Shown in pieces: positions 29,371-37,883 of a DNA stretch of 64,000 nt. The notes under the pieces are model-generated. The model saw only the letters and a list, made by a program, of their open reading frames with translations. It was not told the origin of the DNA and did no database searches. The position numbers and the translations under genes are program-made. This DNA comes from Oxalobacter sp. OttesenSCG-928-P03 (GTDB lineage: Bacteria > Pseudomonadota > Gammaproteobacteria > Burkholderiales > Burkholderiaceae_D): the NCBI GenBank assembly GCA_030269625.1, contig JAJDFZ010000004.1:1-64000 (forward strand), in the 5' to 3' direction. Numbering within the stretch: position 1 is the first letter of the stretch; the number at the start of each line of letters is the position of its first letter.

Positions 29371-30300
29371 TCAGGTCATAATCAGCCTGTCAGGGGCCAG
29401 CACGCTGCCATGCCTGATCAGGGCTGTACCGAGAAGTTTCTGACTCACAAAAGCGTACACCCGGACTCTTTCAGCCGCCTCGGGAACAAACAGTTTTTCT
29501 TTTTCGAGTGACAGCCTTTGCCCGTGCATGAAACGTTTTGCATGGTCCTCTGACAGATGGACAGCGGGAAAGGTTGAAAGAAGAAAATCCACCGGTTTCA
29601 GAATGGATTCCCCCCGGGAACGGTCTGTCTCTTCAATATCGTCCAGCGTACTGGCATCACTTATTTCAAGCTGGCCGACCCTGGTGCGCCGCAGAGAATG
29701 CAGATGGGCGCCACACCCCAGTGTCTCACCGATATCTTCACCCAGAACACGAATATAGGTGCCTTTGCTGCATGAAACACGCAAGGTCAGAAAAGGGGGG
29801 GAAAAATCCAGGAGGGTCATATCATGAATCGTTATCCGCCTTGCCTCACGCTCGACTTCAATGCCGGCACGAGCATACTCGTACAGGGGCTTGCCATCCC
29901 GTTTCAGCGCAGAATGCATGGGAGGAACCTGGTCAATTTCACCCACAAAGCGGGATAAGGCGGCCTTAACCTCGGCCAGCGTAATCCCTTCTGCATCCTG
30001 CTCTGAAACAACCTCGCCTTCCGTATCTCCTGTTGATGTCCGGATACCGAGCCGGACAGTGGTCTCATAGGTCTTGTCCGCGTTAAGCAAGTCCTGTGCA
30101 AATTTGGTCGCCTCACCAAAGCACAGGGGCAAAAGCCCTGTTGCAAAAGGATCAAGGGTACCGGTATGTCCGGCTTTTTTGGCATTCAGCCTGCGTTTGG
30201 CACGGACAAGCGCATCATTGCTCGACAGTCCGGCGGGCTTGTCCAGAAGCAGGACTCCGTGCACAGGCAGGCGCGGTTTGCGGGATGGTGCGGCAGACAT
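29371..30300 (-). CDS. truB: tRNA pseudouridine-55 synthase TruB
   Basis: GVLLLDKPAGLSSNDAL...KKAGHTGTLDPFATGLLPLC. Confidence 0.97.
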   Translation of the reverse strand: MSAAPSRKPRLPVHGVLLLDKPAGLSSNDALVRAKRRLNAKKAGHTGTLDPFATGLLPLCFGEATKFAQDLLNADKTYETTVRLGIRTSTGDTEGEVVSEQDAEGITLAEVKAALSRFVGEIDQVPPMHSALKRDGKPLYEYARAGIEVEREARRITIHDMTLLDFSPPFLTLRVSCSKGTYIRVLGEDIGETLGCGAHLHSLRRTRVGQLEISDASTLDDIEETDRSRGESILKPVDFLLSTFPAVHLSEDHAKRFMHGQRLSLEKEKLFVPEAAERVRVYAFVSQKLLGTALIRHGSVLAPDRLIMT

Positions 30301-30330: not shown

Positions 30331-30723
30331 TTACTCCGCGCCGTCATCGTCTTTGGCTCTTTGCGAATTGGCCTGATCAATGAGATCGGAAAGCGCCATG
30401 CCACGCACAACCGAACGGTCATATTCAAAACGCAATTGTGGCAGGGTATGGATATGCAGGCGCCTGCTCAACTGGTTCCGGATAAAACCATTGGCTTTTT
30501 CGAGTCCCTGGAGCGTTTCCCTGACAGCTTCCTCGCTGTCATTAAGCGTCGTAAAAAAAACCTTCGCATAGGCATAATCCGGCGTCACCTGGACCTCAGT
30601 GATGGTGACCAGTCCGACACGCGGATCTTTCAGTTCAAAAGTCAGTATCTCGGACAGATCCTTCTGGATCTGGTCTGCGACCCGCAGGCTGCGGTCGGGA
30701 ATTGATCTGCCACGCTTTGCCAT
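30331..30723 (-). CDS. rbfA: Ribosome-binding factor A
   Basis: [48 protein letters not shown]; between infB and truB. Confidence 0.96.
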
Positions 30724-30758: not shown

Positions 30759-33515
30759 TTACAGGGTTCTGGCGATCTCCTGAACCTCGTAAACCTCAAG
30801 CTGGTCGCCTTCTTTGATGTCGTTATAGCCTTTGAGCGTCAGACCGCATTCAAATCCGGATTTGACCTCACGTACATCGTCCTTGAAGCGCTTGAGTGAG
30901 TCAATCTCACCTGTCCAGATAACCACATTGTCACGCAGCAGATGCACCATGGAACCGCGCCTGACCAGTCCCTCCAGAACGAAACAACCGGCGATGGAAC
31001 CAATACGGCTGACATGAATAACCTGGCGGATGTCCACGAGACCCAGCGTCTGCTCGCGTTTCTCGGGTGTCAGCATGCCTGACATGGCGGCCCTGACATC
31101 GTCAATCGCATCATAAATGATATTGTAATAGCGGATATCAATGCCATGCGTTTCCGCAAGCGCACGTGTCTGGGCATCTGCACGGGTATTAAAGCCGATA
31201 ATCACGGCACCGGATGCGACGGCAAGGTTAACGTCAGATTCGGTAATACCACCCACAGCAGCATGCACCACCTGCAAGCGGACTTCATCCGTTGACAGTT
31301 TGAGCATGGAACTGGTGAGCGCTTCCTGTGAACCCTGCACATCGGTCTTGATAATCAGCGGAAGCGTTTTCACTTCGCCTTCAGATATCTGGTCAAACAT
31401 GTTCTCCAGTTTGGCTGCCTGCTGTCTGGCCAGCTTGACGTCACGGAATTTGCCCTGCCGGAAAAGCGCAATTTCACGCGCCTTGCGCTCGTCTGTCATG
31501 ACCAGCACTTCTTCACCGGCGGCAGGAACTCCTGTCAGCCCCTGAATTTCAACTGGAATACTCGGCCCGGCTTCAGTAATGGGTTTGCCGTTTTCATCCA
31601 GCATAGCCCTCACGCGGCCAAATTCCTGCCCGACGAGAACCACATCCGCTCTGTGAAGCATACCGGACTGCACCAGAACCGTTGCAACAGGACCACGCCC
31701 TTTATCCAGACGCGCTTCAATAACCAGACCTTTTGCCGGCACATCCACTGGCGCGGTAAGCTCCAGAATCTCTGCCTGCAAAAGCACGTTTTCCAGAAGC
31801 GAATCGATACCCTGGCCGCTTTTTGCCGATACGGGAACAAAAGGCGCATCACCGCCATACTGCTCAGGGATGACATCTTCTGCTACCAGTTCCTGGGTGA
31901 CCCGGTCCACATTCGCGCCGGATTTATCGATTTTGTTGATCGCCACGACAAGCGGAACACCAGCTGCCTTGGCATGGGCAATCGCTTCCTTGGTCTGTGG
32001 CATCACACCATCATCTGCTGCAACAACCAGAATAACGATATCGGTTGCCTTGGCACCCCGTGCGCGCATGGCCGTAAAAGCCTCGTGGCCCGGCGTATCA
32101 AGGAACGTAATCATCCCGTTTGGCGTTCTGACATGGTATGCGCCGATATGCTGGGTAATACCGCCCGCTTCGCCTGACGCAATTTTTGTCCGGCGGATGT
32201 AATCCAGAAGGGAGGTTTTGCCGTGGTCCACGTGCCCCATGACCGTCACAACCGGCGCCCGGGGAAGCAGTTCCGCATCCACGTTTTCACCCATGGCAGC
32301 CAGTTCGGCCTCATGATCCTGAATTTTTGCGGCAAAGGCCTTGTGGCCCATTTCTTCGACCAGGATCATTGCCGTTTCCTGATCCAGCACCTGATTGATC
32401 GTCACCATCTGCCCCAAAAGCATCAACTGTTTGATGACTTCAGATGCCTTGACAGCCATCTGGTGGGCAAGTTCAGCAACGGTAATGGTTTCCGGTACAT
32501 GAATATTTTTGACAATCGCTTCGGTCGGCTGCTGAAAATTGCTTTCCCGCTCCGCGGACTGCTGGCCCTTACGGTTCTTCGATCCGCCACCGCTTCGCCA
32601 TCCATCACGTGAACCGGTTGTAGCGGCGCCACGGGTTTTCATCCCTGTGCCGCGTTTTTTCGCAGCGTCTTCCTGCCAGATGGAGGCCACATTGGCAGAC
32701 TTGATTGATTTTTTCTCGGCTGTGCCCTTCTTCTCATCTTTGGCCGGAGCCGTTTTCTTTTCTGCCGGGCGGCGCAGGGTCGTATCTTTCTTTTTCGCTT
32801 CCTCAGCAGTTTCTGCTGCCGGCTCAGGCTGCTTGGGCGCCTTTTTGGGAGAGGTCATCATGGCCTTAATCTGTGCCACCTCGTCTTCAACTGCCTGCCG
32901 GGTTTTCTCAGCCTCTTCAGCGGCTTTTCTGGCCGCTTCAGCAGCATCTTCAGCCGCTTCTCCTGCTTTTTCCGCTACCGGCTGCTCATCATGCTCCTCT
33001 GCTTTTTGGCGCGCCTCTTCTTCCGCTTTCTGTCGAGCAGCCTTTTCGGCTTCAAGCTGGGCAAGCTGTGCCTGCTTTTCGCGCAACTCCGCTTCCTGAC
33101 GCGCAATCAGTTCGGCCTGGCGACGAGCCTCTTCTGCGCGTTTTTTCTGCTCTGCCTCATCAATAATCGGAGCCGGTGGTGCCTTGGGAGCGGTTTTTTC
33201 AGCCGCGGCCGCCGGATCTTCGCGCTTGAATGTCCGTTTTTTGCGGACTTCAACCTGAATTGTGCGTGATTTACCGGATGCATCAGCCTGCTTGATCTCG
33301 CTGGTTTCCTTGCGGGTGAGCGAGATTTTTTTCTTCTCTTCTGCAGGATTGCCGTGCGATCCGCGCAGATAACTCAGCAATTTATCCTTGTCTGCATTGG
33401 TCAGAGAGTCATTTACTGATTTTTTTTCCACTCCCGCATTGCGCAACTGACTCAGCAGCGCTTCGGCCGGCATATTCAGTTCAGCAGCAAATTGAGCTAC
33501 GTTATTAGTCGCCAT
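30759..33515 (-). CDS. infB: Translation initiation factor IF-2
   Basis: [39 protein letters not shown]; Ala/Glu-rich N-terminal linker; start at [14 protein letters not shown]. Confidence 0.98.
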
Positions 33516-33565
33516 TCCTTCCTCTTTCCTGTCTGACACGGTTCAGTTTGCGGGACTCCCCGCAA

Positions 33566-35125
33566 TTACTTCGCCTCGATCAATTCCCACGCGCGCGACT
33601 GTAATGCCTTCGCATCTTCATCATATTTGGCATCGATGAGCGCCATCTCATCATCCGTCACATCTTCAAAACCATTTTCAATCAGCTCGCGCGCACGTTC
33701 TGTCGACAAAGCGAGGATAGCGCCAAATTCATCATAGGCAAGGCCGCCAAATGCCTCCATTGTCTTGATGCCGGCCAATCCCAGCTTGCCCGCCGTACCT
33801 CTGTCCATTCCTTCCAGATTGATCAGCTCCGGTTCCATATTGGACATGCCCTCTTCAGACGCAATCGCCTCTGTTACCAGTGCGTCGCGTGCACGGGTGC
33901 GCAATTCATTGACGGTTTCTTCATCAAAAGCTTCTATTTCAAGCATTTCATTGATGGGAACATAGGCAATTTCCTCAAGCGCGGAAAAGCCTTCTTCAAT
34001 CAGAATATCCGCAACCTCCTGGTCCACATTGAGTTTGTCCATGAAAAGACTGCGAATACCGGCCGTTTCCATCGCCGATTTGTCGGCGGATTCCTCCGCC
34101 GTCATGATATTGATCTTCCAGTTGGTCAGATCTGACGCCAGACGGACATTCTGTCCGCTCCGGCCAATAGCGATGGCCAGATTTTCCTCGTCAACAATCA
34201 CGTCCATGGCATGCTGCTCTTCATCAACCACAATAGAAGAAACGTTTGCCGGAGCCAGTGCGCCAATGACAAACTGCGCCGGATCTTCAGACCACAGCAC
34301 GATATCCACGCGTTCGCCGCCCAGCTCACCGGTTACGGCCTGCACCCTTGACCCCCTGATCCCCACGCAGGTACCAATCGGATCGATACGTTTGTCGCTG
34401 GTAAATACCGCGATTTTCGCGCGCACACCCGGATCACGCGCCGCTGATTTGATCTCAAGCAGCCCCTGCTCCATTTCAGGCACTTCCAGTTCAAACAGCT
34501 TGATAATGAATTCCGGCGCGGTGCGGGACAAAATGACCTGCTGCCCTCTTGCATTTCTGTCAACGCGCAGAATGTAGGCGCGAACACGGTCGCCGACACG
34601 CAGGTTTTCCTTGGGAATCATCTGATCTCTTGGCAGACGTGCCTCGATCTTGCCGGATTCCAGGATGGCATCGCCACGCTCCATTCTTTTGACCGTACCG
34701 GTAACCATCGAATCACCGCGGGCAAGAAAATCCGTCAGAATCTGCTCACGCTCCGCATCGCGGATACGCTGCAGCACAATCTGTTTGGTATCCTGCGCAA
34801 AACGGCGGCCGAACTCGATCGACTCGATATGTTCTTCAAGATAATCATCCACTTCGATATCAGAGATCTGCTCCTTTGCCTCGAAGTGAAGAATTTCCTG
34901 GTCAGGCAGCTGTAATCCCGCTTCATCGGGAACAACATGCCACCGGCGGAAAGTTTCAAACTCACCGGTTTTGCGATCAATTGCCACCCTGATATCCACA
35001 TCACCCGGATAACGTTTTTTGGTTGCAAGAGCCAAAGCGTGCTCAAGTGCGCCGAGAACGATTTCCCTGTCGACGTTTTTTTCACGCGCGAGCGCATCAA
35101 CCAGTTGCAGAATTTCGAAACTCAT
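33566..35125 (-). CDS. nusA: Transcription termination/antitermination factor NusA
   Basis: NusA N-terminal domain, S1/KH domains, two C-terminal acidic repeats. Confidence 0.97.
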
Positions 35126-35604
35126 TTTTTTCGGCCCCTAAAATTCACCTGCGGCACCAACCGTGCCTTATCCACATCAGAAAGAGAAAAGTGCAACAGC
35201 GCTGCACCTTCCTTCGTATCAAACTCCAATGCCAGTTCGTCGCCTTCAGGTTCCTGTAATATGCCCTGAAAAACCCGCCGGTTTGACATTTCCTCAACCG
35301 GCATACGCAACCTGACATTGGCCTCCATACCCGCAAAGCGGACATAATCGGAAAATCTTTTCAGCGGCCGATCCAGGCCGGGAGAGGAGACTTCCAGACG
35401 CTCATAATCCACATCCTCAACTGTCAGGACATGTGACAATTGATGACTGACAATTTCGCAGTCTTTTACCGTAATGCTGCCTTTCGCAAGCTCTTCCGGC
35501 ATGAAATCGATATATACGCGCAAAAGCCCGCCTGATGCACGTTCAATATCCACCAGATCATAACCACAGCCATTCACTGTTTTTTCTATCAAATCCTGCA
35601 GCAA
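35122..35604 (-). CDS. rimP: Ribosome maturation factor RimP
   Basis: [24 protein letters not shown]...[23 protein letters not shown]; upstream of nusA. Confidence 0.96.
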
Positions 35605-35662
35605 ACCCGCCCCCGGTCAACAGTCTGCGTAGACAGTTCCACGCTTTTCCATTGTTTCAATG

Positions 35663-35686
35663 AAAAAAAAATGGGCGTGCGCCCAT
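35663..35686 (-). terminator. Terminator-like hairpin in the rimP-nusA-infB leader
   Basis: Minus strand ATGGGC-gcac-GCCCAT followed by TTTTTTTT (plus-strand A8 at 35663-35670, stem 35671-35686). Confidence 0.7.
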
Positions 35687-35729
35687 ATTCGTGTTTCAAA
35701 CTTTTCCTGAAAAACCACATCAATATTCT

Positions 35730-35758
35730 ATTATATACAATTAGATACATGACCGCAA
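35730..35758 (-). promoter_or_regulatory. Putative sigma70 promoter of the rimP-nusA-infB operon
   Basis: Minus strand TTGCGG (35753-35758), 17-nt spacer, TATAAT (35730-35735). Confidence 0.65.
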
Positions 35759-35906
35759 TGCTTTATACATACCATTTGAACCAAAATATCCCTCTTTGTC
35801 CTGCCCCCACTTTTTAGCCTCTTGAAGTCACTCGTTGTAAAATCGGATATTTTTAATTCTTTCATTTTTACCGGAAGCACATACCGGTTATCAGGCTGCA
35901 TACCAG

Positions 35907-37883
35907 ATGTCAGAAAAATCCTTGTACAATGAATCATCCATCCAGGTTCTCAAAGGACTGGAACCTGTCCGTCAGCGTCCTGGAATGTATACGCGGACAG
36001 AGAGTCCTCTTCATATCATTACCGAAGTTATCGACAATGCTTCTGATGAGGCCATCGCCGGTTTCTGCCAGAATATCCGGGTAACACTTCATGTCGATGG
36101 CAGCATCAGCGTCGAAGATGACGGCCGGGGCATCCCGGTCGGCCGCCATCCTGATGAGAAAATCCCGACTATTGAGGTTATTTTTACGCGCCTGCATTCA
36201 GGCGGCAAATTCCAGAAAGGCATGGAAAATGCCTATACATTCTCTGGCGGACTGCATGGAGTGGGCGTATCCGTCACCAATGCACTTTCCAGAAAAGTAG
36301 AGGTCAGCGTCTGGCGCGACAGGAAATTCCATGAAATCACCTTTATGGATGGCGAAGTCTCTGAATCCCTGAGATCACGCGGATTGTCACGAGGTGAAAA
36401 AAAATCGGGGACAAAAGTCACCGTCTGGCCGGATCCGAAATATTTTGACAGTGCCGCCATTCCACCTGGCGAGTTGCGCCACCTGCTTCGCTCCAAAGCC
36501 ATTTTGCTGCCCGGCATCGTTGTCTCTCTTTTTGACGAAAAAACAGGAGAAACCGAAACCTGGCAATACGAAAACGGTTTTCGCGGCTATCTGTCCGGAC
36601 AACTGGGGCTGGAAACGGATGAAGACACCGTTATCCCCCTTTTTGAAGGCGAACATTATGCCGGCAGCGCCCAGGAAGGTTTTGCTGTTGGCGAAGGCGC
36701 GGCCTGGATCGTCGCCTGGACAGCGGAAGGTCCCCTTGTGCGCGAGTCCTTTGTCAACCTGATCCCGACTTCGGCTGGTGGCACGCACGAAAGCGGGCTG
36801 CGTGATGGCCTCTTCAATGCGGTTAAAAGTTTTGTGGAAATGCATTCACTCCTGCCAAAAGGTATCCGCCTGCTTCCTGAAGATGTTTTTGCCCGGGTTT
36901 CCTTTCTCCTGTCTGCGAGAGTGCTTGATCCCCAGTTTCAGGGGCAGATCAAGGAAAGGCTGAACTCCCGCGACGCCGTAAGGCTGGTATCACATTTTGT
37001 CCGCCCGCCACTGGAACTGTGGCTGAACCAGAATGTGGACCAGGGGCGCAAGCTGGCTGATCTCGTCATCCGGCAAGCCCAGTCCCGCCTGCGTTCCGCA
37101 CAGAAAGTCGAAAAAAAGAAATCGTCCGGCGTGGCTGTTTTGCCTGGCAAACTGACGGATTGCGAATCCTCGGACATTACCCGAAACGAACTCTTCCTGG
37201 TTGAAGGCGATTCCGCCGGCGGCTCGGCAAAAATGGGCCGGAACAAGGAATTTCAGGCAATCCTCCCCCTGCGCGGTAAAGTGCTGAACTCCTGGGAAAC
37301 GGAAAGAAACCGCCTGTTTGCCAATCAGGAAATACACGATATTTCCGTCGCCATTGGCGTTGATCCTCATGATGCGAACGAAACACCTGATCTTTCCGGC
37401 CTGCGTTATGGAAAAATCTGCATCCTTTCGGATGCTGATGTGGATGGCTCGCATATCCAGGTACTGCTTTTAACCCTGTTTTTCCGTCATTTTCCCAAGC
37501 TGATAGAAAACGGCAATATTTATGTCGCCCGCCCCCCCCTCTATCGTGTTGATGTGCCTGCCCGCGGCAAGCGCCCCGTTCAGAAACTCTATGCGCTGGA
37601 TGAAAGCGAACTTTTTTCCATTCGCGATAAATTGCGCAAGGAAGAAATCAGGGACAGCGCCCTGACGATTTCCCGTTTCAAGGGACTGGGAGAAATGAAT
37701 GCCGAACAGCTGTGGGAAACCACACTGAACCCGGATACCCGCCGCCTGCTTCCTGTCACTCTGGGCGAAATGGGACAGCAGAATTCCGAAGCACGCTTCC
37801 AGATGCTGATGGGCAAAGGAGAAGCCGCGGCCCGCCGGGCGTGGATGGAAGAACACGGACATGAAGCTGAGGCCGATATCTGA
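35907..37883 (+). CDS. parE: DNA topoisomerase IV subunit B
   Basis: GHKL ATPase plus TOPRIM ([34 protein letters not shown]); 658 aa; followed by parC. Confidence 0.95.

Follow-up and report, generated by a model that had tools for sequence, protein, structure and literature searches.

A predicted rimP-leader attenuator before the rimP-nusA-infB operon of Oxalobacter

Why should an operon that encodes NusA and translation initiation factor IF-2 open with what looks like a signal to stop transcribing? The question is raised by the stretch of 64,000 nucleotides analysed here (the window), which comes from an Oxalobacter MAG of 1.68 Mb that is 62% complete. A sequence-only reading of it had proposed a candidate attenuator in the leader of rimP-nusA-infB, and had held feedback by NusA to be plausible. 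Here, the hairpin and T-run in front of these genes prove to be a real and very strongly conserved feature, predicted to act as an early transcription stop signal. By sequence, the element is an attenuator of the rimP-leader type, already described in 2010; this assignment is well supported and makes the element essentially ordinary.

The leader and its operon

The operon lies on the minus strand. Its genes, assigned with Pfam, are rimP (35122..35604, the first gene, with a TTG start), nusA (33566..35125, the second), infB, encoding IF-2 (30759..33539), rbfA (30331..30723) and truB (29371..30300). The encoded NusA has its N-terminal, S1 and KH domains all intact. On the plus strand, by the same Pfam analysis, are parE (35907..37883), the divergent neighbor of rimP, and parC. 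TTG is apparently the start of rimP throughout the genus, as it occupies the aligned position in 13/13 Oxalobacter sequences (L001-L013; 35602-35604, minus strand, in the window). In one of these (L010), an ATG immediately precedes the TTG.

Read along the minus strand, the leader begins with a -35-like hexamer, TTGCGG (35753..35758), which agrees with the consensus at three of six positions. A spacer of 17 nt leads to a perfect -10 box, TATAAT (35730..35735). This box lies within TATATAAT, which is invariant in 13/13 Oxalobacter leaders. The -35 region is weakly conserved in the genus alignment, where most Oxalobacter have a CATTG-type element. Forty-three nt after TATAAT comes the stem-loop ATGGGC-GCAC-GCCCAT (35671..35686), and directly behind it a U-tract of eight T's (35663..35670), which completes an intrinsic terminator. 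Another 58 nt separate the U-tract from the rimP TTG start at 35604; just before that start is a G-rich, RBS-like stretch, GGGGGCGGG (35606..35614), partly invariant in the genus alignment. If transcription is assumed to start 7 nt past the -10 box, premature termination would yield a leader RNA of ~61 nt (35663..35723). On re-reading positions 35400-36000, the places first given for promoter, hairpin, U-tract and rimP start were all found correct, and the measured 43 nt falls within the ~40-60 nt first quoted between promoter and hairpin.

The whole leader does not fold with unusual stability (z -1.27). An ATG frame running through the hairpin of the window was considered as a leader peptide and rejected; it has no ribosome-binding site, and its ATG is missing in the related L004 and L005. 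Neither the list of open reading frames nor the genus alignment gave a conserved leader peptide or protein-binding element besides the hairpin.

How often would such a terminator arise by chance? The 302-nt intergenic region was shuffled 3000 times with its dinucleotides preserved, and none of the shuffles gave a perfect stem (6 bp or more, four or more of them G-C) with 8/8 T's behind it. Even when as many as 3 mismatches are allowed, the full motif matches the 64-kb window at a single place, against 0.09 matches expected by chance, and it occurs once in the whole draft genome. A loose scan for generic terminators found 3, with 3.1 expected in shuffles, and did not set the hairpin apart. Because the loose scan stays at the level of shuffles, conservation is the better test, and there the evidence is strong.

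Conservation of the hairpin and its U-tract

RimP was searched for in 40 relatives, and for the first 30 loci the sequence ahead of rimP was inspected in the correct orientation. These are the window, 12 other Oxalobacter and 17 other Burkholderiales. All 30 have the hairpin, followed by T's. The stem arms are ATGGGC/GCCCAT in 27 loci, GTGGGC/GCCCAC in two, where the outer pair is compensated, and GTGGGC/GCCCAT in the last. The loops are free to vary in sequence and in length; within Oxalobacter they read TTTA (five times), GCAC (four), GTAT (twice), TTGC and ATAT. An exact pattern, ATGGGC-N2..10-GCCCAT-T6, is present in 30 of the 40 genomes, at a single site in each, and every site is immediately upstream of rimP (one of them reads on both strands). 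The same pattern written backwards, as a control, had no match in the 40 genomes.

When the 13 Oxalobacter leaders are aligned, their mean identity is 49%. The columns that are invariant amount essentially to TATATAAT, both arms of the stem, the U-tract and a handful of further bases, including G's of the RBS-like stretch. Further away, in a sample of Gammaproteobacteria, a GGGC..GCCC-T motif stands before rimP in 23 of 29 cases, and the other six mostly have another hairpin with T's.

Two other terminators served as controls. The one behind parC shows no conservation across the genus. The stem of the tRNA-Asp terminator is kept in seven of the eight congeners where it was found. Because this stem is also kept, conservation of a stem within the genus is no proof of special recognition; the stronger argument is offered by conservation across the order and the class.

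Two side observations came from the same loci. Several other Oxalobacteraceae (L015-L018) share, just past the -10 box where the rimP transcript is predicted to begin, an AAYAAAAGT-like sequence that Oxalobacter lacks. One record, L032 (JAMPER010000001.1), is titled Alistipes senegalensis. Its contig is of the Oxalobacter type, its RimP is 86% identical, and the search tool places it in the genus of the window, so the name of the record seems wrong.

What the terminator would do

We consider it probable that the element is a rimP-leader attenuator of the rimP-nusA-infB-rbfA-truB operon, where partial premature termination, raised by NusA, acts as negative feedback. RNA polymerase would start ~7 nt past the TATAAT box and, after ~40 nt, would transcribe the ATGGGC-N4-GCCCAT hairpin and its U-tract. 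Some fraction of the complexes would terminate there, releasing the ~61-nt RNA, and the others would continue into rimP. The second gene supplies NusA, which would make polymerase pause and terminate more at the hairpin, so that the output of the operon would fall when NusA is plentiful. The promoter box, hairpin and U-tract, together with their position, uniqueness and conservation, can be read directly from the DNA; the start site, termination itself and partial readthrough we infer. NusA is proposed as the sensor by analogy with precedents in E. coli and Streptococcus. The poor -35 hexamer counts against this explanation.

A bolder idea, which we regard as rather doubtful, is that the ATGGGC/GCCCAT stem is a sequence-specific signal read by the complex of NusA and RNA polymerase. 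Here, the hairpin alone would sense the dosage of NusA; its stem is nearly unchanged in sequence across Burkholderiales, and upstream antitermination elements would come and go. The very short Oxalobacter leader would lend itself to testing how a single stem sequence might be recognized by NusA.

Antitermination elements of this kind were sought upstream of the hairpin. In the window leader, the best upstream pairing with the 5' arm of the terminator is worth -0.5 kcal/mol, no better than in shuffles. The leader also lacks the second upstream hairpin, CCCg...cGGG, with antiterminator pairing, that gives the tandem form in some Gammaproteobacteria. With no antiterminator pairing in the window leader, a protein would thus be needed for regulation of any kind. 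A sister lineage of Oxalobacter (L007-L009, L011-L013) carries, after the -10 box and before the rimP hairpin, an extra hairpin, CGYCC...GG, whose CGYCC 5' arm can pair with the terminator 5' arm at -6.3 to -9.0 kcal/mol; 0.3-6% of shuffles are as good. This element is a possible antiterminator, absent from the lineage of the window. It resembles the two-hairpin form of some Gammaproteobacteria, a likeness for which six sequences are too few to make a claim.

A leader without an antiterminator would also be expected if the terminator were real but unregulated, a fixed fraction of readthrough simply tuning the basal level of the operon. That little is conserved besides promoter, hairpin and U-tract speaks for such an arrangement, which we nevertheless hold to be improbable. 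Throughout the order and in a large part of Gammaproteobacteria, what persists is the sequence of the stem and not its pairing alone, as would suit recognition by a factor. For E. coli, moreover, there are reports of feedback by NusA (cited in PMC2965389, PMC6511841 and PMC4448216).

Attenuation might, of course, be governed by a signal other than NusA, such as RimP, a coupled ribosome, NusG or cold shock. The discoverers of the rimP-leader considered that RimP might exert feedback (PMC2965389), and the E. coli operon is cold-induced (PMC6511841). However, the direct precedents are for NusA, and the leader has no visible conserved peptide or protein-binding element besides the hairpin. We judge another signal to be somewhat less probable still than an unregulated terminator.

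The sequence-only reading had offered, as its alternative, an independent small RNA of ~60 nt, which would act in trans while rimP was transcribed from a later promoter. A promoter and a terminator 61 nt apart do resemble a small RNA gene, and work in Salmonella and E. coli has found RNAs derived from the rimP leader among the sRNAs associated with ProQ. But even among Oxalobacter, the sequence that precedes the hairpin lacks conservation; the alignment of 13 leaders has no conserved block, apart from the terminator, with which targets might be paired. An RNA so variable in this part offers no stable seed for pairing with targets, and the alternative is therefore weak. Moreover, the hairpin accompanies rimP in every genome that has the exact motif. 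An independent small RNA is therefore given very little credence here.

The gene upstream of rimP changes between lineages, and this provides a clean natural test of whether the hairpin serves the rimP operon. parE is divergent in all 12 Oxalobacter loci that extend far enough to show it, the window included (L010, at a contig end, was left out of this count). In most other relatives, rluB lies upstream and is co-directional with rimP. Other divergent genes take this place in L026 and L029, and a DegQ-like protease in L030; gene names beyond parE are a reading of translations. Whichever gene lies upstream, the hairpin is retained; it is therefore part of the rimP operon and is not the terminator of that neighbor. 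Both of the positional claims made at the outset are thereby borne out: that the hairpin sits inside the operon's own 5' leader and that, parE being divergent from 35907 on the plus strand, no credible minus-strand gene reads in from upstream. That the hairpin is instead the 3' terminator of an upstream gene, as the placing of rluB in many Burkholderiales might suggest, is scarcely credible and, for the window, is refuted by gene order, since parE is divergent there and in 11 other Oxalobacter loci that still keep the hairpin, with a -10 box upstream of it.

Relation to known systems

Rfam, at gathering thresholds, reports only two tRNAs in the window; weak matches to DapZ and L20_leader were taken as chance. 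The family RF01770 (rimP) has the same gene and operon and the same type of terminator, but models a longer, gammaproteobacterial leader. At its gathering cut-off of 47 bits, its covariance model is not reported in the window, and it gives no match above that cut-off in the draft genome or in the 40 relatives, where the many weak matches include a strongest one that is not at rimP. Rfam's own rimP model, that is, misses the rimP-leaders of Oxalobacter and other Burkholderiales.

The best Rfam match in the region is sub-threshold and on the plus strand, at 35664-35705 of the window. It is to RF02420 (Bp1_162, the Burkholderia sRNA Bp1_Cand612_SIPHT). Reverse-complemented, the consensus of this family, AAAAAAAaUGGGCG..CGCCCAuCuUcUU, reads as a rimP-leader terminator; the hairpin and A-tract of the family, annotated as a small RNA, correspond on the other strand to the hairpin and U-tract of the window leader. 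Weak matches in relatives, stronger than that of the window, were examined in five cases. Four lie opposite the leader, immediately ahead of rimP-nusA (L037, L039, L040 and L042, around position 1501-1595); rimP is not near the fifth, nor near a sixth (L041). RT-PCR served as the validation in the source paper for RF02420, and the words rimP, nusA and "strand-specific" do not occur in the main text of that paper. This strongly suggests that RF02420 is the antisense strand of the rimP-leader, and the small-RNA family a strand error, a reading that rests on the loci of relatives rather than on that of Burkholderia pseudomallei.

A search of the literature that included Oxalobacter as a term gave no paper mentioning Oxalobacter. 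Similar leaders are known elsewhere. In Streptococcus agalactiae, the gbs0413-gbs0418 operon likewise has an intrinsic terminator close to the transcription start and upstream of rimP-nusA-infB. A short and a long RNA begin at one shared start site there, termination takes place 31 nt beyond it, and feedback by NusA has been proposed (PMC4448216). S. agalactiae is, of course, Gram-positive, and its 31 nt compare with the ~61 nt predicted for the Oxalobacter window.

The metY-rimP-nusA-infB operon of E. coli shares the core of the operon. It, too, has terminators (t1 and t2) upstream of rimP, and autoregulation by NusA is reported for it; transcripts of the operon go up in mutants with reduced NusA termination (PMC6511841). 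It differs in beginning with metY (tRNA-fMet) and in having several promoters and RNase III sites, whereas the window has no tRNA beside rimP.

The closest likeness is to the rimP-leader itself, the most frequent attenuator in the survey of Naville and Gautheret (PMC2965389). They described a short terminator that precedes rimP-nusA-infB, its stem, GGGc(...)gCCC, being conserved and its other part a U-stretch; no larger conserved element accompanies it, and NusA was named as the best candidate factor. The element in the window agrees with every sequence feature of that description. It is placed 5' of the rimP-nusA-infB operon; ATGGGC-GCAC-GCCCAT-T8 is a short hairpin of the GGGc(...)gCCC type with its U-stretch; its 58 nt fall within the 4-130 nt found between terminator and rimP start; and its stem sequence is kept across species and is specific to rimP. 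Here, too, a larger conserved element is lacking. This match supports the first reading of the locus as a leader attenuator, as does the hairpin, which that reading required in close relatives and which, with the -10 box and U-tract, is kept in 13/13 Oxalobacter. The window differs in being betaproteobacterial, with the stem fixed as ATGGGC/GCCCAT, while the published text stresses Firmicutes and Gammaproteobacteria. Thus, a widespread attenuator of core transcription and translation factors is, as a prediction from 30/30 loci, extended to Oxalobacter and across Burkholderiales.
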